DNA of 40,123 nt from a virus, in the IMG/VR virus record IMGVR_UViG_3300046515_000275, positions 1-40,123 of that record. One strand, given 5' to 3'. The notes below the pieces were generated by a model. It was not told where the DNA came from. It ran no database searches and saw only the letters and a list, made by a program, of their open reading frames with translations. Below, in pieces: positions 1 to 40,123 of this stretch. The translations under genes and the position numbers were made by a program. How positions within the stretch are numbered: position 1 is the first letter of the stretch; the number at the start of each line of letters is the position of its first letter.

Positions 1-2547
1 TTAAAAATAGGAGTATGTGTCTGCGTAATTGTCACCCTCGTCAATTATGTTTCTTAGTGCTCTCCTAGAAATATTGAGATCAAAGTCAATGAGCTTTTGC
101 TCAAGTTTTAATAGTCTTTCTCGGAAAGCAGCGCCATAGCCCTCGACCGCTGGCAGGATATGTTGTGCTACAGCGAAGTCTAGTGGCCGATTTCGCATGC
201 CACCTAGTTCGTTTGCAATGTAGCAGTAGCGCTTGATTGCATTTATTTTGCGCCGGCTGATATGGATGGAACTAGTCTTGGCTGTGTGAGATGATAGTAT
301 TGAGAGTATCTGGTCGAGAGATGCCTGTTCGTCCGGTAGGAAATCTGCCTCGCTAGACGGGATATTGAACGCATTATTTATCTGTTGGAATGGTATTGCG
401 CCGTTAAAGCTAAATGAGTTAGTTAGTGAAGAGATTCCATCTAGACTTATATCATCGCCGAGCGAAATGATAGGGGCTCGGTCGATGAGTCTTGGTGACA
501 GCTTCTCGGTAGTTGCATCGTTATTGATAGTTGCGATAAATCTAACATTTTTACCAACTTCAAGAAAGCGAAGTGATGTGTCTGGGATGCCAAGGTCAAT
601 TTTTCGACCACTTCCCTCCGGATCGCACATTCCCAAGAAATCAGACCAGTAATGCTCAACGCTTGAAAGATTTGCCTCGTCGAGTAGTACAAGTTTCATG
701 AACTCTTCGGCAGTAGGTTCTTTATGTTTGAGAAATTGATATAAGCCGCTTCTAGACGGTTGGTACACGTCCTTCAATGAATTGTAGAAGCCTAGAATGT
801 CACGACCTGCTACCCACCCCCTACCGACTGCAATGTTTAGGAAGTTACCACCCTCATCTTCGTTATTGCAGTTATTCAGGCTGAATGCATGTGCCAGCCT
901 CAGGGCTGTGGAAGTTTTACCAGTTCCAGGAGGGCCGGACAAAATTGTGAGAAATGACTGGCTTGTGCTTATTACCAGGTTGGCCATTTCATCATAAGTG
1001 AATGGTCGGCCTTCGTCTGAATGGAAGTTGTTAAGTAGGTAATGGATGTATTCTTTGCGGTTTGTTTTGTTTAGTTCGATATCGGAAGGCTTTATTTGCG
1101 GTGCTTTGTTTTCTAGCTCTGCTTCGTATCCGGGCTTTCCGTTAAGCATCTGGATTAGAAGTTTCAATTCTGTAAGTTTTTCCCCGAGTTGGGGTGAGGC
1201 AATTAATGTTTTCTGGCTTTCTAGTGTCCTTTGAAGTTCGATGATTTCTTTTTGTCGATCTTGCTGGGTTCGTTGCTGGAACTGAATTTCATCCTTCAAA
1301 CTAACTACTTTTTTAAGTTCTTGGTTTTTTTCGAGAAGCTCTTCAAGCTGCTTCTGGTTTTCCTTGATCTTCTGTTCTATCTCTGTGTTTGTGTTGGTTA
1401 GAATGGTCTGCTTCTCAAGTAGGCTTTGATGCGCTTGTTCAGCAGATTGCTCTTGGATTTTCTTAACTTCGAGTTCGGCTCTAACTCTCGCACGCTCAAC
1501 GTCTTCATCTATGGTTTCAAGCTCTTTCCTCTTTAGCTCCGCCAGGCGGGAGATTTCGTTTATTTCGCGTTGAATCTGCTCCTTCTTTTGCAAGGTTTGA
1601 GCATCAATTTCTTGAATTTTTTCCTTGATGAGGATGTCTCTGTTTTTGTCGAAGTAATTGTCTAGGTATTTTTTTCCTTCGATATTGTCCAGAAGAAAAT
1701 CTTCGATGATTGCTTTTCCGTAGCCGTCGTCTTCTAGGAACTCTGCGAGCACTTCTTCAAGGCGTTTCAAGCGTTGGTCGTTATCCATCGCTTTGTTTTT
1801 TTTCTTATACGCATCAATTATTTGTGTAAGCTTTGTTGCCTCGTTTTTTCCTAGGGTTGAACTTCCTTTTCCAAAACCCGATTTTGCATAATATTTTATC
1901 AGGCGTGAGGCGGAAATATAGTCAACTTTTTCGAAGTTTATTTTCTCAAGTTTTTTTAATGATGTTATGAATGTTTTTGTTAAGCCTCTTATTTCAAATC
2001 GAAGCAATTCGCCACTGTCTTCGAGCGCGCTTTTATCGAATTGTGCAATATGATCTGTCGGTAAGTTTAGTGGCGTTAGCCCGGTAGATGGAGTCAGAAA
2101 CCAGTCGTCTTCATCTTTCGTCGCTAAAAATGGACCGTTTACCTTTCCGCCGTCTTCTATGAAAAATAGAATGTTTCTTGGCAGATCATAACCCAGACTC
2201 ACCTTCCCTGTATCAATGTCGGGCATGGGCATTTTGATGACTGGGATTAACGTGTTGTGCTCTAATCGCTCCGCCCACTCACCTTTGGAATAGTATTTTT
2301 GCCGCCTTTTATCCTCTTTCCATTCATTATCCGTCTCGTGCCACTCTCTTAGTATAAAAAGCTCGTCATCCTTAAATGATTCATCTATTTTTATATACTC
2401 TTTGGAAATAAAAACTCCGGTGTTCGGGAAATCTGTTATGTCCGCGTTTTTGAAACCTCCATCTTCAAGTTCCAATGCAACTGGAATAACATTACCAAGG
2501 TCCGGATTGAAATTTCGTGAATCCTTAACAACCAACAAACGTCCCAT
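1..2547 (-). CDS. McrB-like AAA+ ATPase with long coiled coil
   Basis: The 848-residue protein is complete (TAA at 1-3, ATG at 2545-2547). Residues 1-190 are a mixed, probably beta-rich domain I do not recognise. Residues about 302-450 are Glu/Lys/Gln-rich with heptad character, so a coiled coil. The C-terminal part is an McrB/MoxR-type AAA+ module: Walker A GPPGTGKTS at 538-546, Walker B LVLLDEAN at 619-626, an Asn-rich sensor motif (TINNDA) near 673-678 and an arginine at 690. McrB proteins are NTP-driven motors that power an McrC-type nuclease; the partner gene, if any, would lie left of position 1. The coiled-coil plus McrB layout recalls the McrB homologues of coiled-coil nuclease tandem (CoCoNuT) systems, but this is inference. 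The gene is clearly AT-richer than the phage genes to the right, suggesting transfer. A defence role is likely but unproven. Confidence 0.8.
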   Translation of the reverse strand: MGRLLVVKDSRNFNPDLGNVIPVALELEDGGFKNADITDFPNTGVFISKEYIKIDESFKDDELFILREWHETDNEWKEDKRRQKYYSKGEWAERLEHNTLIPVIKMPMPDIDTGKVSLGYDLPRNILFFIEDGGKVNGPFLATKDEDDWFLTPSTGLTPLNLPTDHIAQFDKSALEDSGELLRFEIRGLTKTFITSLKKLEKINFEKVDYISASRLIKYYAKSGFGKGSSTLGKNEATKLTQIIDAYKKKNKAMDNDQRLKRLEEVLAEFLEDDGYGKAIIEDFLLDNIEGKKYLDNYFDKNRDILIKEKIQEIDAQTLQKKEQIQREINEISRLAELKRKELETIDEDVERARVRAELEVKKIQEQSAEQAHQSLLEKQTILTNTNTEIEQKIKENQKQLEELLEKNQELKKVVSLKDEIQFQQRTQQDRQKEIIELQRTLESQKTLIASPQLGEKLTELKLLIQMLNGKPGYEAELENKAPQIKPSDIELNKTNRKEYIHYLLNNFHSDEGRPFTYDEMANLVISTSQSFLTILSGPPGTGKTSTALRLAHAFSLNNCNNEDEGGNFLNIAVGRGWVAGRDILGFYNSLKDVYQPSRSGLYQFLKHKEPTAEEFMKLVLLDEANLSSVEHYWSDFLGMCDPEGSGRKIDLGIPDTSLRFLEVGKNVRFIATINNDATTEKLSPRLIDRAPIISLGDDISLDGISSLTNSFSFNGAIPFQQINNAFNIPSSEADFLPDEQASLDQILSILSSHTAKTSSIHISRRKINAIKRYCYIANELGGMRNRPLDFAVAQHILPAVEGYGAAFRERLLKLEQKLIDFDLNISRRALRNIIDEGDNYADTYSYF

Positions 2548-3298
2548 TGCGAAAATCCCATTTTCGGTGTAGGTGGCTTTTAGATGTGATGGCGCATTGC
2601 CTGTCGAAATTTAACGGTTCGCGGTGGACATACCAAGCTATTTTCGTCGCCTAGATCTTCAGTGATGGCTGACCTATCTCTGCATCGAGGTCATGCTTGC
2701 CGAATGGTCAAGGTAGCAGCCTTCTAAGCCGAGCGCAGATATGGGGTCCTGCCACCAATCACGCCTGGCTTTACAGTGCCGTAGTAGCCTGTACCAAATT
2801 TATCCCGCAATGCCTGAGGACCGCATAGATCATTTTGCCGAGCCACCAAACCTGCGCCCATCCCTTACTCCCATCAGTGCTCTGACCCAGCCTTCGACCC
2901 TCGAGCTATTCCCCACGTCATCCCGCCAAGAATGTTGAGTGTTATCAGGGATCGAGGCCCCTGCGACCTGTGGGGATGTCCTCTAACGCGGGACTGGCGG
3001 CTCCTTACGACCGGGAGCAAGGGCATCTCATGATCTGGCCTCCTTAACACCGTTGCCTGTGGGCGGGTGGAGGCAGCACTGGCTGACTAGACCAGCGCCT
3101 GAAGATCCTGAGCCGGGTGAACGCAGCACTGCGATGACCGGGGCGTGCCTGACTGTCAGTCAGGTGCAGTCCATTCCGTGGTCTGCGGCACCATCATCTA
3201 CATGGCTGTTGCTGGTGACATCGGCGTTTGTCACGCCGATTGTCACGACGGGGAGTGCCGCAAAGCCATGTGCGATAAGGGCTGCAGCAGTGTTAGAC

Positions 3299-3333
3299 GC
3301 GCCCGTCTCTTTCCAGCAGAAAGAGACGGGCGC
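3299..3333. repeat. perfect 14-bp inverted repeat (hairpin)
   Basis: GCGCCCGTCTCTTT at 3299-3312 is followed after a 7-base loop by its exact reverse complement at 3320-3333. The stem is GC-rich and very stable. No T-run follows on either strand, so it is not a classical intrinsic terminator. It may be a relic of a mobile element end or a transcript-stabilising structure. Confidence 0.7.
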
Positions 3334-3691
3334 AGGTTGGCGCAAGAGTCGGCCAAGCGGATAGGTTGCTGCAGGGCAGCTGAATAGGGAGGAGGTTGGC
3401 GCGCGAGGGCCATAAGCTGGAGAGGGCATCCATCACATGGGTAGTGATCGTACGTGCTGCCGGATGCTGAACATACTTGGGATGAACCACCACGATCAGT
3501 GGCTTGGCCTTCAAGGTTCGGGCCACCTGGGTGCTGTCATCGACAGCGCTTGCACGCTCTTTTCTACTCCCCAGGTCTTGCAGGGTCAAGGGGCGTTTTT
3601 GGGTTGTCCAGCGGTTTTAAGCAGCGTGATCCGTCTATGGAAGACCTTGGCATTCAGTAGCGAATTGCGGTGCTTTTTGTTTTTTAAGTGA

Positions 3692-3736
3692 GGTCCCTCC
3701 AAACAGGGCGGCTTCGCAGCCCTGTTTGGAGAGACC
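3692..3736. terminator. long hairpin downstream of P4-type integrase
   Basis: Arms at 3692-3709 and 3719-3736 are 18 bases long with a single mismatch, and the loop is GGCTTCGCA. It lies about 40 bases beyond the stop codon of the minus-strand integrase, where a terminator would be expected. No immediate T-run follows on either strand, so termination is inferred from position and stem strength only. Confidence 0.5.
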
Positions 3737-3774
3737 CGCGAGTAAAACAAAGCGCTCGCGTATTCACGGTCCTG

Positions 3775-5094
3775 TTATCGCTCAAAAGCGCCACGCTCTT
3801 CTTCCCGTTCACTGCGGTCGATTGCGCTAGCGTTGAGGCCGAGTAGCACCGTCGCCTTGTGCGACAGGAATTGATTCACGCGAGTATCGAACTGATCTCG
3901 CAGGCTCGCGGTTATCCCGTCACGAAGCGCATCAAGATAGTCGGCGTACCATTGCATCATGATTCGCCGTTGAGTTATGTATAGCGCTTGGTTGTACTCA
4001 CCGGCGATGCCACCCTCGACATGCGCCAGCTGACTTTCCACGTGATCCTTGAGCCACCCATGCTCGCGAAGCAGCGTGCTAGCCGTGTGCCTCACGCCGT
4101 GGCTGACCATTCGACCCCCGTAGCCAATCTTGATGAAGACTAGGTTGATGGTGTTCTCGCTGATCACGGGCTGCTTGTTGCCGTTCCCCGGAAACAGATA
4201 CTGGCTGCGCCCAGTGAATTGATGCAGCTTGATGAGCATCGCGATGAGTTGATGAGGTAAAGGGCTGATGTAGTCGCGGCGCATTTTCATGCGTGCGGCG
4301 GGGATGGTCCATGTGCCTTCTTCAAAATCAATATCTGCCCAAGTCGCGTAGCGCACCATGCCAGGACGGGCTGCGGTAAAAATTGCCATCCAGGCGGCGA
4401 TCCGCGCAGGTAGGCGGCTAGTAGTCGTACTCAACGCTTGAAGAAACCCTGGCAACTCGTTTTCGTGCAGGTGTGGGTAGTGCTGCGGAGGGGGAGGAGC
4501 GAGAGCTATGGCATGGAGCTCGGAAGCCGGATTGTTTTCACACAAGCCTCGCGCAATCGCCTGACTGAAAATCTGCTTTAGCCAGGTGCGGGCCTTGTCG
4601 GCCACGTTGAACGCACCGCGATTTTCGATGCTCGCCTGCAACTTCGCACAGTCTGCTCGTGTGATTTCCTCCAACTGCTTCGACCCGAGCGCAGGCAGCA
4701 AATCCTTGTCGAGGTAGTCGCGGATTTTTTTCAAAGTTGCCGGGGCGCGGCCAGAGTTTGATTTGAACTCGTACCAGTATTCAGCCGCGCGCTGGAAGGT
4801 GTTGAGTCCGGCTTCCCGTTTCTGGTGCTTGTCTAGTCGGGCCTTGGCTCCAGGATTGATGTCGTTTTTCACCTGGCGACGGCATTCGGCGGCCTTGTCG
4901 CGCGCCTCCTGCAATGACACCAATGGCCAGACGCCTAGGGACATTTTCATTGGGTGGCCGCGGTAGGTGTACCGGAAATGCCAGTACTTGCTGCCGTTCG
5001 GATGAATCAGAAGGCCAAGACCCAAACTATCACCAAGCATGTACTGCTTGTCGGTCGGCTTGGAGGCTTTGATTTGCAAGGCGGTAAGGGGCAT
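3775..5094 (-). CDS. P4-type tyrosine integrase
   Basis: A site-specific tyrosine recombinase of the P4/DUF4102 type, which inserts genomic islands into tRNA 3' ends. The frame is open to 5163, but the ATG at 5094 is chosen: GGAGGT sits 6 bases upstream (5101-5106) and the protein then begins MPLTALQIK, as is usual for the family, giving 439 residues. The N-terminal DUF4102 domain (about 1-90) is followed by a core-binding domain and a C-terminal catalytic domain. Visible active-site elements are the Arg in AARPGMVR, the HGVRHTAS box, LAHVEGG, and the tyrosine in GEYNQALY followed by the typical QRRIMMQWYADYLD stretch. The gene reads away from a candidate tRNA-like attachment core at 5258-5273, the standard arrangement for P4-like islands. 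It therefore probably belongs to the element on the left that carries the McrB-like gene. Confidence 0.93.
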   Translation of the reverse strand: MPLTALQIKASKPTDKQYMLGDSLGLGLLIHPNGSKYWHFRYTYRGHPMKMSLGVWPLVSLQEARDKAAECRRQVKNDINPGAKARLDKHQKREAGLNTFQRAAEYWYEFKSNSGRAPATLKKIRDYLDKDLLPALGSKQLEEITRADCAKLQASIENRGAFNVADKARTWLKQIFSQAIARGLCENNPASELHAIALAPPPPQHYPHLHENELPGFLQALSTTTSRLPARIAAWMAIFTAARPGMVRYATWADIDFEEGTWTIPAARMKMRRDYISPLPHQLIAMLIKLHQFTGRSQYLFPGNGNKQPVISENTINLVFIKIGYGGRMVSHGVRHTASTLLREHGWLKDHVESQLAHVEGGIAGEYNQALYITQRRIMMQWYADYLDALRDGITASLRDQFDTRVNQFLSHKATVLLGLNASAIDRSEREEERGAFER

Positions 5095-5189
5095 ATCTGT
5101 ACACCTCCAATCCTCGAACTGGAATCTGTACGGAAAATGTACCAAAAAGGGTGTGGCTGGCAAGAGGCGGGGATGGAACCCCAGAGACC

Positions 5190-5212
5190 AAAAAGCCCGC
5201 AGTTAGCGGGCT
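5190..5212 (-). terminator. intrinsic terminator upstream of integrase
   Basis: Read on the minus strand, AGCCCGC-loop-GCGGGCT (arms 5194-5200 and 5206-5212, 5-base loop) is followed by a run of T. Such hairpins commonly follow tRNA genes. Here it lies between the candidate tRNA-like 3' end at 5258-5273 and the P4-type integrase, so it may be the terminator carried with the attachment site. Confidence 0.65.
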
Positions 5213-5257
5213 CTAGGGGTATTGCTTAGCCGTCGTTGGACGTCTATGTACATCAAA

Positions 5258-5273
5258 TGGTGCCCCGAGGGGG
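5258..5273 (-). other. candidate attachment core resembling a tRNA 3' end
   Basis: On the minus strand the sequence reads CCCCC TCGGGGC A CCA. This fits the 3' half of a T-stem, a 7-base acceptor strand, a discriminator base and CCA. The sequence just before it does not continue as a T-loop, so only the 3' end would be present, as expected for an attachment core left by integration. It is followed on the minus strand by a terminator and the P4-type integrase. Against this, the stretch is also a small self-contained hairpin (TGCCCC-GAG-GGGGCA), and the matching full tRNA is not in the window. Confidence 0.35.
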
Positions 5274-5308
5274 CAACTGTGGTGGTGTGGCAAAAAGGTG
5301 CTATAGCG

Positions 5309-5418
5309 GGCGTAAGGCTTCAACCTACTGATTACGCTGGATTTTAGATGTCCCACTTAGTGCGGCTCGCGGCGATTGGCTGCATTGGCGTGATAGCCTT
5401 TACGCCACATTTACGCCA
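5309..5418. repeat. TTACGCC-type repeats upstream of integrase
   Basis: TTTACGCCA occurs twice, at 5399-5407 and 5410-5418, 11 bases apart (one helical turn). A close inverted copy (CTTACGCC on the minus strand) lies at 5309-5316 and a partial copy (ATTACGCT) at 5331-5338. Clusters like this next to a phage integrase are often arm-type binding sites for integrase or excisionase. That function is inferred only from position and spacing. Confidence 0.45.
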
Positions 5419-5438
5419 GCAAGGACAGAGGTAGGGGA

Positions 5439-6437
5439 ATGGCATCTTTTCGGAAGCGTAGCGGTGGCTGGCGAGCCGAAGTGGCTCGATTGGGAGTTCG
5501 GGACACCAGGACCTTCACAACGAAGGCCGCAGCAGTTGCATGGGCCACCACCCGTGAGGCCGAAATCCTGGCGTCTGCCGGCGGGCCTAAGTGTTCTGTT
5601 GAAATGACCGTATCCGAAGCGCTACGCCGCTACAAACGTGACGTGACCCCCACCAAGGCTGGCAAGAAATGGGAAGAGCTCCGCCTGGACAAGTTTGATG
5701 CAGAACTCGAATGGGTAGGTGAATTCCTGTCGGACATCACTAGTGACCAGGTGGCCAAGTGGCGGGACGCAAGGCTTCGAGTAGTTGCTAGTCCCACCGT
5801 TCGCCGTGAGATGACGTTACTGTCGTCAGTGTTCGAGATTTCTCGTCGGGAATGGCGCGCATGTGTCGTCAACCCTGTGCGCGATGTGAAGCGTCCCCTC
5901 AACAATCCGCCCAGGGATCGCCGCATTGACCCAGGGGAAGAAACCGCTTTGCTTAACCGGCTTGGCTATGTGGATGCCGAAGTCCCTGTGACGCTTCATC
6001 AGGAACTGGCCATGGCATTTCTCATAGCCCTGGAAACAGCTATGAGGCAAGGCGAAATTCTTGGGATCACTGCCAAGGATGTAAACCTTAAACAGCGCTT
6101 TGTGCACCTTCCAATGACTAAGAATGGATCTAGCCGAAATGTCCCTCTCAGCAAGCGGGCCGTTGCACTGATCGGGATACTACTGGCAGAGAAGAAAGGT
6201 GCTGAAAAACTTTTCAGGCTGACGTCTGCGTCGGCCGATGCGATGTTCAGGAAGGTGCGAGACGATGTAGCGATTGTGGGGCTAACGTTCCATGACACTC
6301 GACATGAGGCTATTACGCGACTGGCAAGAAAGGTCGATGTCCTCGACCTTGCCCGTATCACCGGCCACAAAGATCCTCGTTCGTTGATGGTCTATTACAA
6401 CGCCACGGCTTCAGAAATGGCATTGCGTCTGGATTAA
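5439..6437 (+). CDS. int: phage tyrosine integrase
   Basis: A 332-residue tyrosine recombinase of the XerC/D-like phage type, expected to integrate and (with an excisionase) excise the prophage to its right. It has an N-terminal Arg-rich arm-binding segment, a SAM-like core-binding domain (about 55-155) and a catalytic domain from about 165. Catalytic residues visible are Arg in ETAMRQGEILG, Lys in MTKNGSSR, the HDTRHEA box, GHKD and the nucleophile tyrosine in MVYYNATA. A GAGG ribosome site lies 7 bases before the ATG. Its stop codon overlaps the terminator of the convergent early operon. It is back-to-back with the P4-type integrase, 344 bases between start codons, so two different elements abut here. 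Confidence 0.93.
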   Translation: MASFRKRSGGWRAEVARLGVRDTRTFTTKAAAVAWATTREAEILASAGGPKCSVEMTVSEALRRYKRDVTPTKAGKKWEELRLDKFDAELEWVGEFLSDITSDQVAKWRDARLRVVASPTVRREMTLLSSVFEISRREWRACVVNPVRDVKRPLNNPPRDRRIDPGEETALLNRLGYVDAEVPVTLHQELAMAFLIALETAMRQGEILGITAKDVNLKQRFVHLPMTKNGSSRNVPLSKRAVALIGILLAEKKGAEKLFRLTSASADAMFRKVRDDVAIVGLTFHDTRHEAITRLARKVDVLDLARITGHKDPRSLMVYYNATASEMALRLD

Positions 6438-6439
6438 AA

Positions 6440-6460
6440 AAGCCTGCGCGAGGCAGGCTT
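6440..6460 (-). terminator. terminator of the early operon
   Basis: AAGCCTGC / GCAGGCTT arms (6440-6447 and 6453-6460) with a 5-base loop. Read on the minus strand the stem is followed by six T residues, a good intrinsic terminator just after the stop of the last early gene (6466). It also sits 3 bases after the integrase stop codon and may act on both strands. Confidence 0.8.
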
Positions 6461-6465
6461 AAGCT

Positions 6466-6798
6466 TTATGCACGCCTTCTGGCGCGGGGTTCTGGCAGCC
6501 TGGCTCTATTTTGCCTTGTCCAGGTGATCACTTCTCCAGCAAACCAACGTTTAGATGCCCGCTCTCCGGTAGCGCACGGCTGCATGCTCTCCGGAAAGGT
6601 GTCTTGCACCACGACACGGCGTTCGACTGTGTATTGGGCCAACTTGAGATAATCGGCAATGTCCTGCGTTGTCCACAGTTGGTCTTGGATGGACACTTGC
6701 GGCCGTTTCAGCTGATTGATCAGTTCGTTGAGCGAGCTGATGAGAGCCGCATTCTCGAGCATTAGCGCTTCGTTCGAGGGCGCATGCACATTACTCAT
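6466..6798 (-). CDS. AlpA-like HTH protein, possible excisionase
   Basis: The 110-residue protein (ATG at 6798) has an N-terminal helical stretch rich in Leu/Asn that looks like a short coiled coil, then a MerR/AlpA-type winged-helix segment: LWTTQDIADYLKLAQYTVERRV followed by KRWFAGEVITWTRQNR. AlpA/Cox-type proteins direct excision or regulate phage integrases. It is the last gene of the early operon and lies next to and convergent with the phage integrase, so an excisionase role is plausible. The frame is open upstream to 6933, but that part overlaps the preceding gene and has poor composition. The C-terminus is Arg-rich. Confidence 0.65.
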   Translation of the reverse strand: MSNVHAPSNEALMLENAALISSLNELINQLKRPQVSIQDQLWTTQDIADYLKLAQYTVERRVVVQDTFPESMQPCATGERASKRWFAGEVITWTRQNRARLPEPRARRRA

Positions 6799-6811
6799 TC
6801 CTGCTATTCCA

Positions 6812-7051
6812 TCAGCGGCCGCGCTGGGCGGTGAATTGAACGTGGGGGTCGGTGCTGCAGCGGTTGGCTGCGAACAGATCCGGCTGTGCCATGGAGGCTC
6901 CCAATTTGCTGGCCAAGGCGCGTGCTGCTTCATCGGCGCTGATGGTGCTGCTGGCGGTGGCCTTCTCGCCCCGAGCTCGGGCGGTGTAGGTGCCGGCGCT
7001 GAGTCGAACGCTGATGATCAGGTCCGGGGTCGTGGTCTGGTTAGCGAGCAT
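6812..7051 (-). CDS. hypothetical early phage protein
   Basis: A 79-residue protein beginning MLANQTTTPDL. The ATG at 7051 is preferred because the frame upstream overlaps the neighbour and a GGGG-type ribosome site lies about 11 bases before it. The start overlaps the stop of the preceding gene by 11 bases, as in translationally coupled phage operons. The sequence is Ala/Thr/Ser-rich with no domain I recognise. A beta-strand-like stretch (LIISVRLSAGTYTARARG) precedes a helix. Confidence 0.55.
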   Translation of the reverse strand: MLANQTTTPDLIISVRLSAGTYTARARGEKATASSTISADEAARALASKLGASMAQPDLFAANRCSTDPHVQFTAQRGR

Positions 7052-7244
7052 AGCGGCGCCCCTGCTGTACTTTTTTGGCTTCGACGTTGGCCATGTAGGC
7101 CTCCCATTCAACGGATTTTCGCTGCTGGCGGATTTGGCTGCAGCGCTGGTGCTTGCCGGTGGAGCGGGCCTTGTTGCAGACGTCACAGTGGTTGGGCAAG
7201 TCCAGCGAGTGGCTGGCCAGGCGTGGACGAGTTTGTTGGCTCAT
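7041..7244 (-). CDS. small Cys-containing (zinc-finger-like) protein
   Basis: A 67-residue basic protein. The motif HCDVCNKARSTGKHQRCSQIRQQR, with a CxxC pair, a third Cys 14 residues later and nearby His, suggests a small metal-binding finger. Its ATG overlaps the stop of the DUF2528 gene (ATGA). Small proteins of this kind are frequent in early regions of Pseudomonas temperate phages; the function is unknown. Confidence 0.65.
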   Translation of the reverse strand: MSQQTRPRLASHSLDLPNHCDVCNKARSTGKHQRCSQIRQQRKSVEWEAYMANVEAKKVQQGRRYAR

Positions 7245-7672
7245 GACGCCACCTCGGCTAAGCCCACATCGTCATAGCCGGGCATCGATACTTCGGCGGC
7301 GACTACCCGAATGCCACACCATCCGAAGCCATCCTCCTCAACCGGTCCCCCCCAGCCTTCCTCGTTGTGCAGATCGTCCTTTGACCAGATGGCGCCAGGG
7401 TCATCGCCGAACACCCCTTTCGTGCGCTCATAGAACTCGGTACCGCCTTGGGAGAGCATTGCGTTTATCAGCGTTTGACCGGCCAGGCGGATGACCGCTT
7501 TCACCACGTCGCCGCCTTCGTGGCGCAGGCGATACTTATCGTCACCCCAGAAGCTGTTGATCATTTCAGCCCGTTTGGGCGTCAGCCTGTCGAGGTTCAC
7601 TTCGAGCAGTACCTCGTAGTCCTTCCAGGTGTCTTTGACTTTGAAGCGCTTGATGTTTGCTGGAGTGGTCAT
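7241..7672 (-). CDS. DUF2528-family protein
   Basis: A 143-residue acidic protein. The N-terminal part (KRFKVKDTWKDYEVLLEVNLDRLTP...AEMINSFWG) resembles DUF2528, a family of unknown function found mainly in prophages of Pseudomonas and relatives. Its start overlaps the preceding stop by the ATGA arrangement and its stop overlaps the next start in the same way, so it is an integral member of the early operon. Confidence 0.7.
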   Translation of the reverse strand: MTTPANIKRFKVKDTWKDYEVLLEVNLDRLTPKRAEMINSFWGDDKYRLRHEGGDVVKAVIRLAGQTLINAMLSQGGTEFYERTKGVFGDDPGAIWSKDDLHNEEGWGGPVEEDGFGWCGIRVVAAEVSMPGYDDVGLAEVAS

Positions 7673-7947
7673 GCTCGAGCTCCTGGAGCAAAGGTATTAA
7701 TGGAGTGGCTCGCGTCGTAGCGAGCGAGTAGGGTGGCGACGAGCTGGGCTTCTGCCCCATCGAGCACGCCCAAACGCTGGGCCATGTCGGCGGCGCCCTC
7801 GAGGCGGGCACGGGTGCTGGGCGAGCGGTGCACCTGGTGATCGACCATTGCGGCGCCGATGACGCCGATGGCCAGCAGGCGCGGGCTGTGGCCAGCCTCG
7901 GTTGTGGTAGGCTTCGCGGTACCGCTGCTTTGGGTAATCGAGTTCAT
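7669..7947 (-). CDS. hypothetical early phage protein
   Basis: A 92-residue protein with an AGAGGA ribosome site before the ATG at 7947 and an ATGA overlap with the DUF2528 gene. The central helix (RLLAIGVIGAAMVDHQVHRS) and the Ala/Leu-rich remainder give no recognisable domain. Real-gene status rests on the ribosome site and operon packing. Confidence 0.6.
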   Translation of the reverse strand: MNSITQSSGTAKPTTTEAGHSPRLLAIGVIGAAMVDHQVHRSPSTRARLEGAADMAQRLGVLDGAEAQLVATLLARYDASHSINTFAPGARA

Positions 7948-8354: not shown

Positions 8355-8669
8355 TTACGCCAGGGTGGTTGGGCGCTGTTCAGATCGGCGCACCAGGAAG
8401 ATCTCGAGGTCCTGCAGCTGGCCGTCGTCGTCGCAGCTGCTCCATTCCAGTACCGCCTGCACCTGGGCCCGAGTGCAGTCCATGACGAGGATTCCCCGCT
8501 CACCACGGGCGACGCGCACTTCCAGAATCTCCAGCAGGCCATCGGCGGCATACGCGTCGGCGTAGATGTATGGCACGGCTCCAGTTGAGGCCGGCAGCCG
8601 GGCGGTAACGAACCCCATCAGGTCCGGCGCCTCTACCTTCCAGTCGCTGTTGATTACGTGAATGTCCAT
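8355..8669 (-). CDS. hypothetical early phage protein
   Basis: A 104-residue acidic protein starting MDIHVINSDWKVEAP. The frame stays open to 8786, but the part upstream of the ATG at 8669 lies inside the primase gene and is unlike a real N-terminus. It starts 5 bases after the primase stop, so the two are probably translationally linked. The composition suggests a small alpha/beta fold; the function is unknown. Confidence 0.65.
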   Translation of the reverse strand: MDIHVINSDWKVEAPDLMGFVTARLPASTGAVPYIYADAYAADGLLEILEVRVARGERGILVMDCTRAQVQAVLEWSSCDDDGQLQDLEIFLVRRSEQRPTTLA

Positions 8670-8674
8670 GGCAG

Positions 8675-11365
8675 TTACTCCCGGAAGACAAAGCAGCGAA
8701 CGGACTGGGGGATCTTTTGGGCTGGCAGCGCGGCCTGCAGGCGAGCCCGGATGACGCTCTCGGTCCGCTTCTGCTCCGACAGGCACTGGTGTGCACGGCA
8801 GTCCTTGAGCAGCCGGCGCAGTACCGCCAGCTCCGGGATCCGCTGCCGGTGTTCCACGGCCACTTCGGCGAACTGGTTGAGGTTGATGGCGATCTGGCCA
8901 GGGGTCTTGCTGTGGTTGACCAGTGGGGCCCCCGGCAGCGACTCGAGGTAGTCGTAGACCTGCCAGAACTCGTTCACCTCTTTCGGGTCGGTGGTGATCG
9001 CCGCTTGGCGCTCGCTGGCGGCCTTCTCAACGTACTTGCGGCACGCCTTGACCATGTGGTCCGGGATCTCGATCACCAGCTGCAGGCAGTCCACCAGGGC
9101 CAGCATCATGGCGTGGTTTTTGATCACCCGGTCCGAGGTCAACTTGCGGTTGCCCCACAGTTCGGCGCGGTACTTGGGGTACAGCTCGGCGAAGCGCTTG
9201 AGGATCTTCGGCTCGGCCCGCATAGCCTTGATCATGAAGTGGCTGACGTGCTCGACCTCGGTCTGCACAATCGCGTCAGCGGCCCGGCGGCTTTCCTCGG
9301 TGATCGTTGGCTTGAGGAAGGGCAGGCGGAAGATCCGGCTGATGATCGCTTCGTGACCAACGACAATGGCGTTCTGGGCGATCACGATCGAGGCGCGGAA
9401 CGGCGGCTCATACGTGTCGTTGCTGTTGGACTTGACTCCACGGGTCCGCAGGGTGCCGCCGCCATAGAAGTCTTTGAACTGGTCCCACTCGAAGGCCTTG
9501 GTGTTGTCCTCGTTGGTGTTTCGGTCGGCCTCGAGCAGTACCAGTGGCAGGTTGGCCACCTGGCCCATGGCCCGGCTCAGGCCAGAGAACGAGCTCTTTG
9601 CCGGGTCGAAGCCCTCGTACATACGGCCGAACAGCTTCCACAGGAACTTGATCAGCGTGGTCTTACCCGAGTCGGGCTCACCTGACATTTCCAGGAACGG
9701 GAAGCTTTCATGCTCGGCACGGATCTGCTCGGCGAACAGTGAGCCGAACCAGTAGGTAAGGGCCAGCACCCCGTTTTCGCCGAAGCAGGTCCACAGGTGG
9801 CGCAACCAATCCTCGCGATAGCCTTTCGCGTCGAGGGCGTTCTTGATCTTCACCGACTTCATCAGGCACTTGACCCGCTGCTTGCCGAATTCGAAGTAGT
9901 CTTCGTCGTTGGCCTTGAAGATCGAGCCCTTGTGGATGGCAATGTCGTTGAAGATGTAAGCCTGGTGGTCGCGGCTGTAGCCCAGGAAGTCAATGGTCTC
10001 GACGGTTTTAAGGCCTTCGGTCTGCCGCAGGATGATCTGGTCCAGGTGCTTCTGCGTGCCGAGCCATGTGGCGCCGGAGTACATCAGGCGGGTTTTGAAC
10101 TCGCTGCTGGACGAGATCTGTTTGGGCGTGAAGGTGTAATTATCGCCGTCGTCGTCCTGCTTGCCGGCCACCTGGAAGTAGAACCAGGCTTCGTTGGTGA
10201 CATCGCTGACCTGCTTGTACAGTGCCTGGAAACGGCAGTTGGCCAGCAGTTTCAGAGAGCACACCTTCTTGAGCACATCACGGCGATCGTCTTCGTCGTC
10301 CTGGTCCTTGCTGCCAGCGAGTTCCTTCTGCTCCTCCTCGAGCTTGGACAGGTCGAATTTGGCCCAATAGGTCTGGTTGCCGAAGTCAAATGCGAACTCG
10401 GTGAAGCCTTCGTCCCACATGTACATCAACAGGGCCTTTTCGCGGGCGGTTGGAGCCAGTAGCAGGTCGCCCTCATGGCGGGCCGCTTCCAGATCGCGCT
10501 TGCGCTTGTGGTTGCGCGCCTGGCCTTCATCCTCGAACTGCCAGCGCTGGTGCAGGTCGTTCCAGTCGACCTTTTTGTCCCGCTGTGGAATGAGCGCGGC
10601 TCTGCACTCGAAGCCCATTTCCTTTGCCTGCCTGGCCCAGCGTTGCAGATAGCCGCGGGCTGTGGGCTCGTTGTCGAGGGCCCACACCAGCGTCGGTAGG
10701 TTGCCCGGGCGCTGCTCGGCCAGCTGCTTCAAGGCCTCGACAGGGAAATTCACGCTCGACATAGCCGACACCGCGTCGATGCCGTTTTGCACCAGGGCGA
10801 TGGCGTCGAAGATGCCTTCAACGATCCACAGCTCCTGGACGGCTTCAAGCTTGATGCTTGGCGGGCACCACCACTGGCCCTGCGCGCTGTAACCGAACTT
10901 GAAGCGGGCCTTCATCTTGCCGAAGCGGGCGGGACGATCGATCAGCCGCTCCCAGTAACCGCCGTTCGGCAGCGGGAACCGGACCGTGGCACTGGCCTCG
11001 CCGCTTTCCTGGTTGACGTAGTTTTCCTGGGAGAACCAGCCGGTCATCTGCCAAGCATCGAGGCCTCGGGAGAATTCCAGGTAGGTGCGAGCAGTCAGGT
11101 GCGGGTCGCTCTCCGTGGCCGGTGCGCGCTTGCTCCAGTCTTCAAACAGATCCTCATAGATGCCTTTGACATGCTCGATGTGGCCGCAGCGCTCAGGGCG
11201 TCCGCAGCGGATCTGCCACGGATTGTCATGGCGGGCATACAGCTCTTTCTTTCCACAGGCCGGGCAAACGCCGCCCCGCATGTAGTTCGTGCCGGCGCGC
11301 AGCTTCAGGCCGAAATCACTTTCCAGCCGTTGCAGCACTTGTGAGCGGATATCTTCATTCATCAT
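8675..11365 (-). CDS. phage primase-helicase (zinc finger, TOPRIM, helicase)
   Basis: An 896-residue replication protein. The N-terminal zinc finger (CPACG near residue 35, then RCGRPERCGH) fits a primase zinc-binding domain. The TOPRIM segment LWIVEGIFDAIALV near residue 180 supplies the Glu of the primase active site, with the WALDNEPT acidic stretch after it. The C-terminal half has a helicase-type P-loop, SGEPDSGKTTLIKF (about residue 560), and a Walker B-like LPLVLLEADRN. Such proteins make primers and unwind DNA at the phage origin. Two adjacent ATG codons (11365 and 11362) follow the preceding stop by 5 bases; the frame upstream to 11500 overlaps the neighbour and is discounted. P2 and HP1 use a rolling-circle initiator instead, so this module appears to come from another phage type. 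Confidence 0.88.
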   Translation of the reverse strand: MMNEDIRSQVLQRLESDFGLKLRAGTNYMRGGVCPACGKKELYARHDNPWQIRCGRPERCGHIEHVKGIYEDLFEDWSKRAPATESDPHLTARTYLEFSRGLDAWQMTGWFSQENYVNQESGEASATVRFPLPNGGYWERLIDRPARFGKMKARFKFGYSAQGQWWCPPSIKLEAVQELWIVEGIFDAIALVQNGIDAVSAMSSVNFPVEALKQLAEQRPGNLPTLVWALDNEPTARGYLQRWARQAKEMGFECRAALIPQRDKKVDWNDLHQRWQFEDEGQARNHKRKRDLEAARHEGDLLLAPTAREKALLMYMWDEGFTEFAFDFGNQTYWAKFDLSKLEEEQKELAGSKDQDDEDDRRDVLKKVCSLKLLANCRFQALYKQVSDVTNEAWFYFQVAGKQDDDGDNYTFTPKQISSSSEFKTRLMYSGATWLGTQKHLDQIILRQTEGLKTVETIDFLGYSRDHQAYIFNDIAIHKGSIFKANDEDYFEFGKQRVKCLMKSVKIKNALDAKGYREDWLRHLWTCFGENGVLALTYWFGSLFAEQIRAEHESFPFLEMSGEPDSGKTTLIKFLWKLFGRMYEGFDPAKSSFSGLSRAMGQVANLPLVLLEADRNTNEDNTKAFEWDQFKDFYGGGTLRTRGVKSNSNDTYEPPFRASIVIAQNAIVVGHEAIISRIFRLPFLKPTITEESRRAADAIVQTEVEHVSHFMIKAMRAEPKILKRFAELYPKYRAELWGNRKLTSDRVIKNHAMMLALVDCLQLVIEIPDHMVKACRKYVEKAASERQAAITTDPKEVNEFWQVYDYLESLPGAPLVNHSKTPGQIAINLNQFAEVAVEHRQRIPELAVLRRLLKDCRAHQCLSEQKRTESVIRARLQAALPAQKIPQSVRCFVFRE

Positions 11366-13691: not shown

Positions 13692-14723
13692 CTACGACGC
13701 GTTACTAGATGTAGTGTTTTGGTCGGTTGATTTCGGCTCAATCCAGTTGATTCGCCTGTCTTCGCGCAGCGTGTCGTTGACTTGGTTGAACATCTGGCAG
13801 ATGGGTCGAATCTCGTTGTTGGTGTAAACCCGGTCGATCTTTTCGATGTCACCGAACCCGGCGTTGTTTTCAGGGATGATGCCGGCCAGGGCAGGGTTCA
13901 TGCGCCAGGCCGCAATGATGTCGTTCCTGGTGATGTTCTTGACCTTCTCCAGGTCGTCCTTCGATTGGAAGTCGCCTACCGGGATGATCTGGATCGCCTT
14001 TTCTGCGCCCCCCGGGATGTTCACGAACATGCTGCGGAAGTTACCCACACCCTTACTGCCAGAGATCTGCGCCTGCAGCGCCTTCTCGTCCTCCTCGCTC
14101 ATGTTGGGGTCGTTGGAGTAGAAGATGTAGCCAACGTGCGCGCCGTTGTTGTAGTAGCGCCGGCGGAAGAGGGTGGCCGCTTCGTTGAGCAACAGCGCCT
14201 GGAGGCCGCCCAAGTAGTCCGGAACTCCGTAGATGTTCTGTTGCACGTCGTAGTTGAATATGTGCTCGACCTCGTCCTGGTCGAACTCGAGCCGGCTGCC
14301 ATCTGGCATGAGCATCACAAAGCCGCCATCCACTCTGACCCGCATGTTGATCGCTGGAAGGTGTTCAAGCTCCAAGACCTGATCGAAGACGCTGCGTTTG
14401 CGCAACAGGTAGGTTTCGCCGAACACCATGTAATCCAGTGCTGCACGGCTCATAGCCTGGTGGCTGAAGCCACGCGACGGAATGAAGTCACGCAGCAGCA
14501 GATTGCGCTTGAACGGGGGGATTGCGCCGTGGTGTGCGTTGGCTTGCAGTAGCTTGGCCAGGCCAACGCGGGAGGCCGGCGGCGTGTACAGCGTGCCGTC
14601 GTTGCTGGGGAACACCCCCAGGTAGTTGCCGATGTTGTCGCCGAGAACGGCTTCGGGCGCGCCGAACGTAAAGGCTCGCATGGGCTGTTTGGGCTGCTGC
14701 TGGACTACGTGATGTTGTGGCAT
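13692..14723 (-). CDS. Q: portal protein (P2 gpQ family)
   Basis: A 343-residue portal protein, similar in length to P2 gpQ (344). It forms the dodecameric ring through which DNA is packaged. Family-typical blocks are RAFTFGAPEAVLG, YMVFGETYLLRK, EVEHIFNYDVQQNIYGVPDYLGGLQALLLNEAATLFRRRYYNNGAHVGYIFY and NPALAGIIPENNAGFGDIEK. The ATG at 14723 gives a family-like N-terminus. It is the downstream partner of the terminase large-subunit gene on the minus strand, whose frame overlaps it by 236 bases. Confidence 0.93.
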   Translation of the reverse strand: MPQHHVVQQQPKQPMRAFTFGAPEAVLGDNIGNYLGVFPSNDGTLYTPPASRVGLAKLLQANAHHGAIPPFKRNLLLRDFIPSRGFSHQAMSRAALDYMVFGETYLLRKRSVFDQVLELEHLPAINMRVRVDGGFVMLMPDGSRLEFDQDEVEHIFNYDVQQNIYGVPDYLGGLQALLLNEAATLFRRRYYNNGAHVGYIFYSNDPNMSEEDEKALQAQISGSKGVGNFRSMFVNIPGGAEKAIQIIPVGDFQSKDDLEKVKNITRNDIIAAWRMNPALAGIIPENNAGFGDIEKIDRVYTNNEIRPICQMFNQVNDTLREDRRINWIEPKSTDQNTTSSNAS

Positions 14724-16557
14724 GGCTTTCTGATCCGCTGGTGATGTAGCGGCTGCGCCGCTGCCGGTTGTTGTTGAGGGGTTCGTTGTAGAGGGCGTGC
14801 ATGATGGCCCACGCTATATCGGCGTGGCCGGTGGCTTCTGTACGCGACGCGCTGTATGTCACCTGACCGCTGGCAGTGGTGCCGCGCTTGATCGTCAGGA
14901 AGGCCTGAGCGATGTCGCTCCAGCCGGCATCCCACTCGATACGGGAATGCTGGATCGTGTCCTGGGCCTTGAGAACCAGGGCGTTCTTCGCCTCGAGGCT
15001 GTAATGGATCGACTGGGCCCGCGGGTAGAAGTCGCGCACCATGTCGAACACGCCGTAGCCGATCCCGGTGGTATCGATGCCGATGTGCTGGACGTTGAAC
15101 CGCTCGGTGAGCTTCTTGATCTGGCTGGCCTGGTACTTGAACGACTGTCCCCGCCAGCTGTGCTTCTCCAGGATCCGGAACTTGGCGCCCGGTTCGAGTG
15201 GGGGCGCGATAACCACGCACGTTGCGTCGTCGCGGGTACGGCTGGGGTCGTAGCCGATCCAGACCGGGCTGTTGCCATACGGCCTGGGATCGTCCGGCTC
15301 GTAATCGGTCCACAGTGATAGATCGCTGTAGCACCGCTCCAGGTCAGAAAGGTGGAAGGCCCCCTGCGAACTGTCGATGAATTTGCACATGAACAGCTGC
15401 TCAAACGCATCGTCGTCGTACTCCAGCTGCAGCTGCTCGAGGTCGAACAGGCCACACCCGCCGTTGATCGCATCCAGGATGGTGATCGTTTTGCGCCACT
15501 GACCGTCAGGGCACAGGGCGCCGACACTGTATTCCGTGGCTGCTGGCCATTCCGCCACAGCAGGCGTGCCGCGCCGCTTCTTGCGGTTGCGGAAGGATTC
15601 GCCAGTCCAGAAGGGATAGGCCTGGTGCGTGACCGCGCTGGGCGTCGAGAAATAGGTTTTGCGCCACTTCTTGTGGGTGGCCATGGCCGAAGCCACCTTG
15701 TTCAGCTTCTCGAAATCCTTGATCCAGAAGTATTCGTCGACGTAAACATGGCCGTGGTGGCCCTGGGCGGTGCTGCTGTTGGTGCTGAGGAAGCGCAGCT
15801 CGGCCCACGGCTTGCCGTCCTTGCTCAGAACGATGGGGTTGCCGGTGAGCTCAAGCCCGAACCATTCCTGAGCAAACGAGATGATGTAGCTGCGGAAGAT
15901 TTCGGACTGCGCCCGGCTGGCCGACAGGAACACCTGGTTGTCACCGGTGAGCACGGCATCCATGAACGCCTCGCCGGCGAAGTAGTAGGTCAGGCCCACC
16001 TGGCGGGATTTCAGAATGTTGCGGATCCGGGCTGTGAGCGGGTTCTGCTTGGCCGCAAACAGCTCTTTCTGGTAGCCGAACATCTTGCTGATGAACTTGT
16101 CGAGGAAGTCGACCTCGGTGAGCCCGGTGACGTCGTTTTTAGGCGCCTTTTGTTTTTTGCCCTCACCACGTTCGCCCCGGCGGCGCTGTCCGCGCTCGCC
16201 CCGGTCCCGCCGAGGCTGCTCATTGTCCTGGTCTTCCGGGTTGGCGACCTGATGGGCAGGCGCGGCTGGTTTCGCGCACTGCTTGGCCAAACGTTCACGC
16301 TGAGTGATCAGGCGGTCCAGCTCGTTCTGCTCGGCTTCGGTCAAAGCCTCGGGCTTCTCATACAGCAGCGTGATCCGACGGCTGACGGCCGTCAGCGGCT
16401 CCTCGTCGGTGAGCATGTCCTCCCATAAGCCCTGCCGGATCCAGTAATAGACGATCCGGACGTTGGGCAGCCCGAGTTGCGCCTGGATTTCCTTCGCTTT
16501 GCATCGGCGTAGGAACAGACGTTTTGCGGCTTCTTTGACTTCGTTCGAGTAGTACAT
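14488..16557 (-). CDS. P: terminase large subunit (P2 gpP family)
   Basis: The DNA-packaging ATPase. The N-terminus has the family's HTH (VKEAAKRLFLRRCKAKEIQAQLGLPNVRIVYYWI), followed by a long linker with an Arg/Glu-rich low-complexity section (about 125-150). The ATPase begins near ILKSRQVGLTYYFAGEAF, a P2-type adenine/Walker A region, and HVYVDEYFWI is Walker B. A nuclease domain starts around VWIGYDPSRTRDDATCVV. Residues 1-612 match the usual length of the family (P2: 590). The last 77 residues run out of frame through the start of the portal gene and are Arg/Gln/Ala-rich with no family character, which suggests a lost stop codon or a small frameshift. The true C-terminus may be near 14724. 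Confidence 0.9.
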   Translation of the reverse strand: MYYSNEVKEAAKRLFLRRCKAKEIQAQLGLPNVRIVYYWIRQGLWEDMLTDEEPLTAVSRRITLLYEKPEALTEAEQNELDRLITQRERLAKQCAKPAAPAHQVANPEDQDNEQPRRDRGERGQRRRGERGEGKKQKAPKNDVTGLTEVDFLDKFISKMFGYQKELFAAKQNPLTARIRNILKSRQVGLTYYFAGEAFMDAVLTGDNQVFLSASRAQSEIFRSYIISFAQEWFGLELTGNPIVLSKDGKPWAELRFLSTNSSTAQGHHGHVYVDEYFWIKDFEKLNKVASAMATHKKWRKTYFSTPSAVTHQAYPFWTGESFRNRKKRRGTPAVAEWPAATEYSVGALCPDGQWRKTITILDAINGGCGLFDLEQLQLEYDDDAFEQLFMCKFIDSSQGAFHLSDLERCYSDLSLWTDYEPDDPRPYGNSPVWIGYDPSRTRDDATCVVIAPPLEPGAKFRILEKHSWRGQSFKYQASQIKKLTERFNVQHIGIDTTGIGYGVFDMVRDFYPRAQSIHYSLEAKNALVLKAQDTIQHSRIEWDAGWSDIAQAFLTIKRGTTASGQVTYSASRTEATGHADIAWAIMHALYNEPLNNNRQRRSRYITSGSESHATTSRSPAAAQTAHASLYVRRARSRSRRQHRQLPGGVPQQRRHAVHAAGLPRWPGQATASQRTPRRNPPVQAQSAAA

Positions 16558-16717
16558 GGACTGCAGTCTATGCGGCGATTGTGCAGCTAACTCCCGGTTA
16601 ATTTGCGCTTAGTTCCTAGATCGTTCAAATAGGACAGGCGCGCAGGCAAACCGTTTGTTGCTGAGGGTTCGACTTCATATGGTGGGGGCCTCAAAGCCAC
16701 GAACACAGCAGACGCTC
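16558..16717. promoter_or_regulatory. divergent late promoter region
   Basis: The 160-base gap between the divergent terminase (minus) and scaffold-protease (plus) genes is where P2-like phages place two Ogr-activated late promoters. I could not identify a clear Ogr box (dyad with TGT and ACA half-sites) by eye, so the assignment rests on gene layout. Confidence 0.5.
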
Positions 16718-17671
16718 ATGCCCCGTTCCCTCGTTTCGTTCTGGAAGCGCGTAGCCACTAGCGGTCCGACAGTCGATGGTCGCGAAATCCTTCCCCAGGA
16801 GCTACGCGACATTGCGGAGACCTATCGCCCGTCGCTCTACACCGCTGTGATCTGGTGTGAGCACGAGCGCCAGTGGGGCAGTTACGGCACCGTCTACGCG
16901 GTCCGCTTGATCGAAGAGGCGGAGGATCTAGAACCTGGTCAGGTTGCCCTAGAAGCGCAGCTCAAGCCCAACGACAAGCTGCTTCACCTCAATGACATGG
17001 GCGAGAAGTTGTTCACCAGCATCGAGATCTGGCCGAACTTCCAAGGTCGTGGAAAAGCGTACATGACCGGGATCGCGGTCACTGATGAGCCAGCCAGTGT
17101 CGGTACCCAAGAGCTCTACTTTTCCGCGCACCGCAGACAAGGCCGGTACTTCGCGGCCCCCGTCCATATGGATGGGTTCAGTAACGAACCCAAGAGCGAC
17201 GTCGGGAAGCTCCTTTCCGCGCTTACTGGGCTGTTCAAGAGATTCGCCTCGGACCAAAAGCCCGCTGGCACTCCTACCCCCCAAACCGAGAGCAAACCCC
17301 CAATGGATGAAGCAACCGCTACAGCGCTTGCTGCGCTGGTGCAGCAACTTCTGATCGTGGCCGCAGGCCTGCAGGCTGTGATTGCGCCCGCTGCCGAAGA
17401 GGCTCCTGATCCTGACCAGGAGCAGATCGATACCGTTGAAACGGCTGTCGAGGACATCGTTGCCACTGCCGAGGAACAGCGCGAGTTCAATCGTCGCCGT
17501 CCTGTAGCGCCGAAAAAACCGGCTGCAGCTGCACAACAGCCGAGCAACCAGGCGCTGGCCTCGAGCATGGCCAACATCGAGAACATGTTCAGTCAACTGC
17601 TGAACACCCCGCAGGGTCGCCAGGTGCCCCGTACCACCGGTGGCAACGCCGACAACAAGCGAGTGCTCTGA
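16718..17671 (+). CDS. O: capsid scaffolding serine protease (gpO family)
   Basis: A 317-residue scaffold and maturation protease. The frame is open from 16655, but the ATG at 16718 gives the family-like start MPRSLVSFWKRVATSGPTVDGREI. By comparison with P2 gpO the catalytic triad is the Asp in TVDGREI, the His in WCEHERQW and the Ser in LFTSIEI. VTDEPASVGT is another conserved block. The C-terminal half (about 190-317) is Ala/Pro/Gln-rich and helical, the scaffold part. It is followed after one base by the capsid gene. The ribosome site is weak. Confidence 0.9.
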   Translation: MPRSLVSFWKRVATSGPTVDGREILPQELRDIAETYRPSLYTAVIWCEHERQWGSYGTVYAVRLIEEAEDLEPGQVALEAQLKPNDKLLHLNDMGEKLFTSIEIWPNFQGRGKAYMTGIAVTDEPASVGTQELYFSAHRRQGRYFAAPVHMDGFSNEPKSDVGKLLSALTGLFKRFASDQKPAGTPTPQTESKPPMDEATATALAALVQQLLIVAAGLQAVIAPAAEEAPDPDQEQIDTVETAVEDIVATAEEQREFNRRRPVAPKKPAAAAQQPSNQALASSMANIENMFSQLLNTPQGRQVPRTTGGNADNKRVL

Positions 17672-17672
17672 C

Positions 17673-21165: not shown

Positions 21166-21175
21166 GAGGCATCCC

Positions 21176-22285: not shown

Positions 22286-22287
22286 CC

Positions 22288-40102: not shown

Positions 40103-40123
40103 GGTGACACCCCCGAGAACCAA

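Follow-up and report, generated by a model that had tools for sequence, protein, structure and literature searches.

A CnuB/McrB-like gene at the cut end of a Pseudomonas provirus record as the probable motor subunit of a CoCoNuT-like nuclease system

The stretch of DNA analysed here, called the window in the following, is the entire IMG/VR virus record IMGVR_UViG_3300046515_000275, with a length of 40,123 bases. Its left end holds a minus-strand gene for an McrB-like protein (P0001). When the minus strand is read in its own direction, the tRNA-Leu 3'-end-like core CCTCGGGGCACCA is followed by about 95 nt, a P4-type integrase, 1.2 kb, the McrB-like gene and the end of the record (Table 1). The prophage in the window is Pseudomonas P2/phi3-like: portal, terminase and primase families are found, and all eight matching phage records are from Pseudomonas. 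The McrB-like gene is best explained as coding for the CnuB-like motor and sensor subunit of a CoCoNuT-kind nuclease system that derives from McrBC and consists of two genes; by described features the system is nearest to Type I-C, and it is carried as P4-type cargo in tRNA-Leu beside a Pseudomonas P2-like prophage. We put the probability of this reading at about 0.72.

Table 1. Features of the McrB-like gene and its surroundings in the window.
Feature	Position	Strand	Basis
CnuB/McrB-like gene, 848 aa, ATG start, TAA stop	1..2547	-	PADLOC PDC-M26A, E 5.7e-18
N-terminal beta-rich module, residues 1-208	1924..2547	-	DSSP of model
Long helical hairpin / coiled coil, residues 289-449	1201..1683	-	model, composition
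McrB-type AAA+ GTPase-like domain, residues 494-848	4..1068	-	structure and profile matches
Walker A GPPGTGKT, residues 538-545	913..936	-	conserved
Walker B VLLDEAN, residues 620-626	670..690	-	conserved
NxD signature N675-N676-D677 (TINND 673-677)	517..525	-	N675 and D677 invariant in 21/21 rows
P4-type tyrosine integrase, upstream of the McrB-like gene, same direction	3775..5163	-	Arm-DNA-bind_3 6e-22, Phage_integrase 1e-17
tRNA-Leu 3'-end-like core CCTCGGGGCACCA, probable attachment (att) core	5258..5270	-	94-95 nt upstream of integrase start
Second integrase, that of the adjoining P2/phi3-like Pseudomonas prophage	5439..6437	+	outside the system; marks boundary

A sequence-only reading of the window had described the gene as an AT-rich McrB-like ATPase fused to a long coiled coil, placed beside a P4-type integrase. 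The open reading frame (ORF) is real, and its GC content of 42.0% agrees with that description, since the prophage has 61.8% and the P4-type integrase 56.0%. The likeness to McrB is clearest in structure. An AlphaFold2 model was built from a 21-row alignment, with a mean predicted local distance difference test score (pLDDT) of 78.4 and a predicted template modelling score (pTM) of 0.48; because of the latter value the placement of the domains is unsure. When this model was searched with VIA, E. coli McrB ranked first (Z 16.7, root-mean-square deviation 2.7 A, 184 aligned positions), and Foldseek returned 6hz4 with E 2.4e-7, while AAA+ chains of the MCM, Lon, dynein and MoxR types came close behind McrB in the structure searches. 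At the level of sequence, Pfam AAA_5 is matched with 22.6 bits, barely above its cut-off of 22 (20.2 bits in another scan), and a PDB search by sequence alone reached McrB only at E 0.13.

The signature motif of the domain separates it from the classical enzyme. All 21 aligned family members carry NxD, whereas E. coli McrB carries NTAD, i.e., NxxD, at the corresponding site, and NxD is described in PMC11090510 as the mark of the GTPase branch that contains the CoCoNuTs, as opposed to NxxD in classical McrB. This upholds the earlier proposal that the architecture departs from classical McrB in the direction of CoCoNuT-like systems. Across the 21 rows of the family, 46-53 residues separate Walker B from the start of NxD, compared with 85 in L021 (L numbers denote the loci examined). 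Since the GTPase thus lacks a helical insert between the two motifs, the family is not Type I-A.

In the model, the beta-rich N-terminal module extends to residue 208 and consists of two beta domains (about 1-112 and 113-208); helices continue to residue 290, and two long helices (289-368 and 373-449) then lead to the AAA+ domain. Residues 292-451 contain neither Pro nor Gly, and Glu, Lys, Gln and Arg make up about half of both hairpin helices. A hydrophobic period of 3.5 residues is present in the second helix, where only 35 of 2000 shuffled sequences reach the same level, and is unsupported in the first helix of the window protein, where 998 of 2000 are as high, though it appears in the first helix of some homologues. 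The proposed long coiled coil is thus supported for the second helix and not for the first, and the data justify speaking of a long helical hairpin that is in part a coiled coil. Four homologues (L012, L015, L016 and L017; 1068-1142 aa) are longer by about 220-300 residues.

The N-terminal module matches little. At E <= 10, Pfam gave nothing for three pieces of P0001 or for two of three homologues, and for the corresponding piece of L033 it gave DUF1036 with E 0.095; a profile of the module (A5) found no match in the PDB. A GPF motif at residues 138-140, in the second beta domain, is kept as GPF, GPY or GPL in nearly all members that hold the region, and a search for a known domain there found none. 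A spacing of the cold-shock domain (CSD) kind is loose and seen by eye, and we make no claim of it. When the complete model was used as the query, AAA+ rows took up the results (mainly residues 485-824), so that these searches barely probed the N-terminal module.

To find out what accompanies the gene, its relatives must be considered. Homologues were drawn, among the matches listed, from viral contigs, plasmids (126 records, of which 19 reached a coverage of at least 80%) and contigs of genomes, and 26 loci besides the window had a strong profile match. From this set, L001, L028, L033 and L039-L044 had been removed as duplicates of a record or gene already included, and L020-L027, L037 and L038 as weaker members of other McrB families or loci with no hit; the near-identical L029 and L030 were counted as two, and two records with the partner only (L055 and L056) were not counted. 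When the partner was called by profile A2, a gene of McrC-like type (DUF2357 plus a PD-(D/E)XK-type domain) was found directly downstream on the same strand in 24 of the 26 loci. It starts between -65 and +17 nt from the stop codon in 22 loci, at +54 in L004 and at +313 in L017. Of the two exceptions, L014 has a contig that ends 118 bases past the stop, while L045/L267 is a remnant of 468 aa that adjoins an integrase and has no partner. In the closest relative among these matches, L002, with 74% identity across its full length, the partner gene begins 9 nt past the stop and matches PF09823 (DUF2357) with E 5.2e-8, above the cut-off. The sequence-only reading had placed the partner nuclease just left of the window, and it was essentially right, the predicted partner included, as far as relatives can show; the contrary outcome that it had named, with no nuclease in the operon and homologues devoid of defence genes, is not what these loci show.

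That the window itself holds no partner follows, in our reading, from where the record was cut and not from biology. Bases 1-3 are the TAA stop codon of the McrB-like gene, and the final base is the start of a TTG-initiated ORF. Both ends are thus gene boundaries, which is what gene-wise provirus trimming would give. L055 and L056 show the mirror image of this cut: each record opens, at base 1, on the ATG start codon of a partner that is 80% identical to the one in L002. A CnuC-like partner in the present host very probably starts about 10 nt past the left end and was lost to trimming, and very probably has an N-terminal beta-sandwich, a DUF2357 stalk and a PD-(D/E)XK nuclease in about 620 aa. 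The case illustrates how one half of a defence operon can go unseen when a provirus is trimmed at gene boundaries. If the window copy were instead an orphan or decayed passenger without a functional partner, it would resemble the remnant at L267 or the homologue at L032 (8483-11067), which lies in a prophage and is split into two frames, though an intact partner follows it. In the window, the ORF has its full length and all its motifs, and its end coincides with the cut of the record on the stop codon; an orphan gene was therefore rejected, and we regard it as the least probable of the readings considered.

The partners resemble McrC in fold and in catalytic residues. In an alignment of 16 of the 24 (A4), nine match DUF2357 and nine match PDDEXK_7 at E <= 0.001, and E398, P491-D492, D510 and K512 are invariant in all 16, so that the nuclease, as judged from these residues, looks active. 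The partner model (pLDDT 80.9; Foldseek 6hz4, 6.4e-8) has a nuclease part with Z 10.5 to McrC (6hz4) and a DUF2357 part with Z 10.0 (6ut5). Its residues 1-125 form an extra N-terminal beta-sandwich of about 12 strands, for which Ig-like rows appear at middling Z.

From these parts, a working cycle can be proposed for the two-gene system. The N-terminal beta module would recognise a nucleic acid specific to infection, and the helical hairpin would join this sensor to the ring or build higher assemblies. By homology with McrBC, the AAA+ domain may form a hexamer that hydrolyses GTP, stimulated at its NxD loop by the DUF2357 stalk. The ring would then pull the strand, and the PD-(D/E)XK domain would cut the invading nucleic acid, most likely DNA. 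DNA is the first guess because none of the aligned partners has lost a catalytic residue, and RNA is the main rival target because the CoCoNuT authors predict it (PMC11090510). According to this rival, the N-terminal module binds RNA or a component of translation, and the outcome is dormancy or death rather than the cutting of DNA. It is in line with the listing, in PMC12447246, of CoCoNut_1-C among systems regarded there as abortive, and with its correlation there with phage susceptibility in a panel of Pseudomonas strains. Against it, neither the gene itself nor the loci of its relatives, as far as these were read, yielded an RNA-binding domain, a HEPN domain or an RNase, and all PD-(D/E)XK residues are kept as in the DNA-cutting McrC; the latter point is not decisive, because PD-(D/E)XK folds can cut RNA too. 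An RNA-targeting abortive system is possible but doubtful. Since the pairs are compact, intact two-gene cassettes and small enough to clone, the choice between DNA and RNA can be tested.

Within the CoCoNuTs, the closest type is most likely I-C, as judged by described features and not by a tree with published references. Like Type I, and I-C in particular, the family has an NxD GTPase with a long coiled coil on its N-terminal side, a two-gene operon, and an McrC homologue in which an extra beta-sandwich precedes DUF2357 and the PD-(D/E)XK domain; together with the missing I-A insert, these features fit Type I-C. Types II and III add a CnuH helicase and a HEPN effector, but a pair of UPF1-like helicase and HEPN genes is absent beside the genes in L002-L006, L029, L268 and L269; L008 has a ResIII helicase upstream of the pair. 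All 21 family members match PADLOC PDC-M26A, and the family is therefore already on a list of candidate defence genes. PDC-M26 is not named in the open-access literature searched, and searches there for it or for the clade gave, beyond the CoCoNuT papers, only work on other CoCoNuT types or mentions of CoCoNut_1-C. When PMC11090510 appeared, according to that paper, none of the NxD McrB GTPases had been characterised.

In a tree of GTPase domains with 33 rows, the family is a 21-row group (100/99), within which P0001 and its five nearest relatives form a 6-row group (100/98). The family is separate from the Type I-B-like rows of Bacillota (L257-L259) and from the Type II-like row L020, which are the only kinds of CoCoNuT compared in the tree, and the root is unsure because the branch of E. 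coli McrB is very long. The three Bacillota plasmids carry three-gene sets of an upstream hypothetical protein, an McrB-like gene and a DUF2357-like gene, and resemble Type I-B CoCoNuTs. L020 (1046-11951), from a Thalassobium metagenome-assembled genome, is a Type II-like CoCoNuT with a kinase, a superfamily 1 (SF1) helicase, a winged helix-turn-helix protein with a weak HEPN match, a coiled-coil GTPase and a partner.

Several observations weigh against the assignment to a CoCoNuT system near Type I-C. The record, whose end falls on the McrB-like stop codon, holds no partner, and the remnant at L267 shows that a truncated copy without partner can exist next to an integrase. While the CnuB of Type I-C has an N-terminal CSD-like OB-fold and often a YTH-like domain, no cold-shock/OB or YTH domain was found in the N-terminal module by Pfam, by the PDB profile search or by hhalign, which gave a probability of 0.2% against E. 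coli CspA, CspC, CspD and CspE. In the McrC that has been studied, the signature Asp interacts with an Arg/Lys that is conserved (PMC11090510), whereas no Arg or Lys is invariant in the DUF2357 part across the 16 partners, which is a small point against fully McrC-like stimulation. The Ig-like domain of Type I-B and I-C CnuC is likened to RhoGDI1 in PMC11090510; RhoGDI rows do appear for the partner sandwich (Z 5.1-5.9), at a middling score that is common to other beta-sandwiches and tied with them. PADLOC models matched none of five partners, in contrast to the PDC-M26A match of the whole family. Furthermore, the family is likened to Type I-C by description and is a well-supported clade of its own, so that it could be its own type, and no functional test of the clade was found in the open-access literature.

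Seen from this side, the family might be a separate, undescribed CoCoNuT subtype with a two-domain beta sensor that carries the conserved GPF motif and is neither CSD nor YTH, cutting DNA and travelling mainly as integrase-proximal cargo on islands, plasmids, prophages and satellites of the P4 type, as a weapon between elements rather than a resident host system. The words prophage, integrase and horizontal gave no hit in the main text of PMC11090510. We consider such a subtype, taken with all these properties, unlikely. Most likely, the pair is a defence system of a known kind, either Type I-C proper or a subtype of its own.

Classical McrBC was rejected as an identity for the gene. The AAA+ motor fold and the DUF2357 and nuclease folds of McrC are shared with the E. 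coli system, but the family differs by NxD instead of NxxD, by the long hairpin, by the beta-sandwich of the partner and by another N-terminal domain: where classical McrB has DUF3578 (ADAM), Pfam found no match in the N-terminal module of P0001 at E <= 10. CoCoPALM, with its FtsB-like transmembrane N-terminal domain, was likewise rejected, as judged from the structure model, in which the N-terminus consists of beta strands with a first helix at residues 51-57.

A pair of AAA+ and DUF2357 genes is also found in restriction enzymes of the PcaI and LlaJI kind, which are described together with a methyltransferase in PMC8989522, and the gene could accordingly be the restriction half of a restriction-modification system whose host is protected by a methyltransferase elsewhere on the element. 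Such neighbours do occur: L260 has methyltransferase, AAA and DUF2357 genes in a row, L002 has an N6_N4 methyltransferase after the pair, and L005 has a restriction-modification set nearby. However, L260 belongs to another part of the GTPase tree, the methyltransferase of L002 lies 477 nt further on within the prophage, and none is annotated beside the pair in L003, L004, L006, L268 and L269; in the loci read, the family is mostly without an adjacent methyltransferase. A plain restriction half was therefore rejected, and the explanation is improbable.

The surroundings of the gene bear on both its mobility and its function. The neighbouring integrase is of P4 type, as had been said, and matches NCBIfam PRK09692 with E 6e-71, yet below the cut-off of that model. 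The accompanying suggestion of a tRNA-type island fared less simply: a tRNA scan of the window found no whole tRNA gene, which is not evidence against an island because the 3'-end-like core is present. The same core lies 94 nt before the start of an 80%-identical integrase in L057; in L058, CCCTCGGGGCACCA lies 192 nt before the integrase, and in L059 the integrase sits behind tRNA-Leu. A pattern search for that 3' end listed 80 loci, and of ten of them that were scanned for tRNA genes, six had tRNA-Leu at the match, one had tRNA-Arg and three had none. In the window, two integrases placed back to back on opposite strands (3775-6437) flank the core, as if a P4-type element and a prophage had accreted in tandem at the same site.

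That the gene stands in a defence context, as had also been proposed, is supported by relatives in integrase-proximal cargo slots. To take the clearest example, the P4-like satellite L029 has the order tRNA-Leu, integrase (2155-3417), McrB-like and McrC-like genes (3533-7938), psu (8473-9321), an AlpA-like gene and P4 primase, so that the pair fills the interval between integrase and psu exactly; in L030, the pair is likewise preceded by that tRNA-Leu. This interval is described as an antiviral hotspot of P4 satellites in PMC9122126; in the window, only an integrase side is visible, and psu was not seen. Of 5426 E. coli genomes, 706 hold relatives of the L029 integrase, and the matches extend over the pair in none of them; in three that were opened the slot held three hypothetical genes, a SIR2 protein and an ABC-three-component set, respectively. 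The pair of L003 is 100% identical in three of the 5426 genomes, in two of which, when opened, it lies integrase-proximal in an island adjoining tRNA-Phe. As L003 is a Citrobacter plasmid and the identical copies (among them L268 and L269) are on E. coli chromosomes, the spread is probably recent. An integrase-proximal cargo position is shared by the window, L003 and L006; the pair of L002, which is in a prophage, has antiterminator Q on one side and a methylase on the other.

The many homologues on prophages, satellites, plasmids and islands would also be expected if the pair served maintenance of the mobile element or interaction with the host, and not defence. Against this stand the copy in the int-psu slot, where other E. 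coli satellites carry the SIR2 protein or the ABC-three-component system, and the antiviral cargo demonstrated for that slot (PMC9122126). CoCoNut Type II is, moreover, among the systems that protect PAO1 from at least one phage in PMC12735699, so that the only functional hint comes from another type. A function other than defence is improbable to the same degree as the restriction half.

In the 369 class genomes, P0001 found two matches at E <= 1e-30, namely the centre genome itself and a truncated remnant; the P4-type integrase reached at best 41% identity, and a 16S-type pattern for Pseudomonas was found in none of the 369.

Other genes near these loci may be mentioned. In the prophage of L002, an AAA ATPase gene (PF00004) precedes a subtilase gene (PF00082) at 14271-17783, and the two are a second possible defence pair. 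The Klebsiella plasmid L006 carries a SMODS nucleotidyltransferase and an S-4TM effector (21036-22325), a CBASS-like set at a distance of about 7 kb to the pair. In the window, the opposite end of the prophage has a minus-strand gene of 523 aa (36636-38207), AT-rich with 46% GC, for which only a weak match to PADLOC PDC-M02A was found (E 0.0017, residues 19-83); it is a possible second cargo gene. A minus-strand ORF of 218 aa (39467-40123) has a weak match to DUF4145 (E 0.0077), and the record ends with its start codon.

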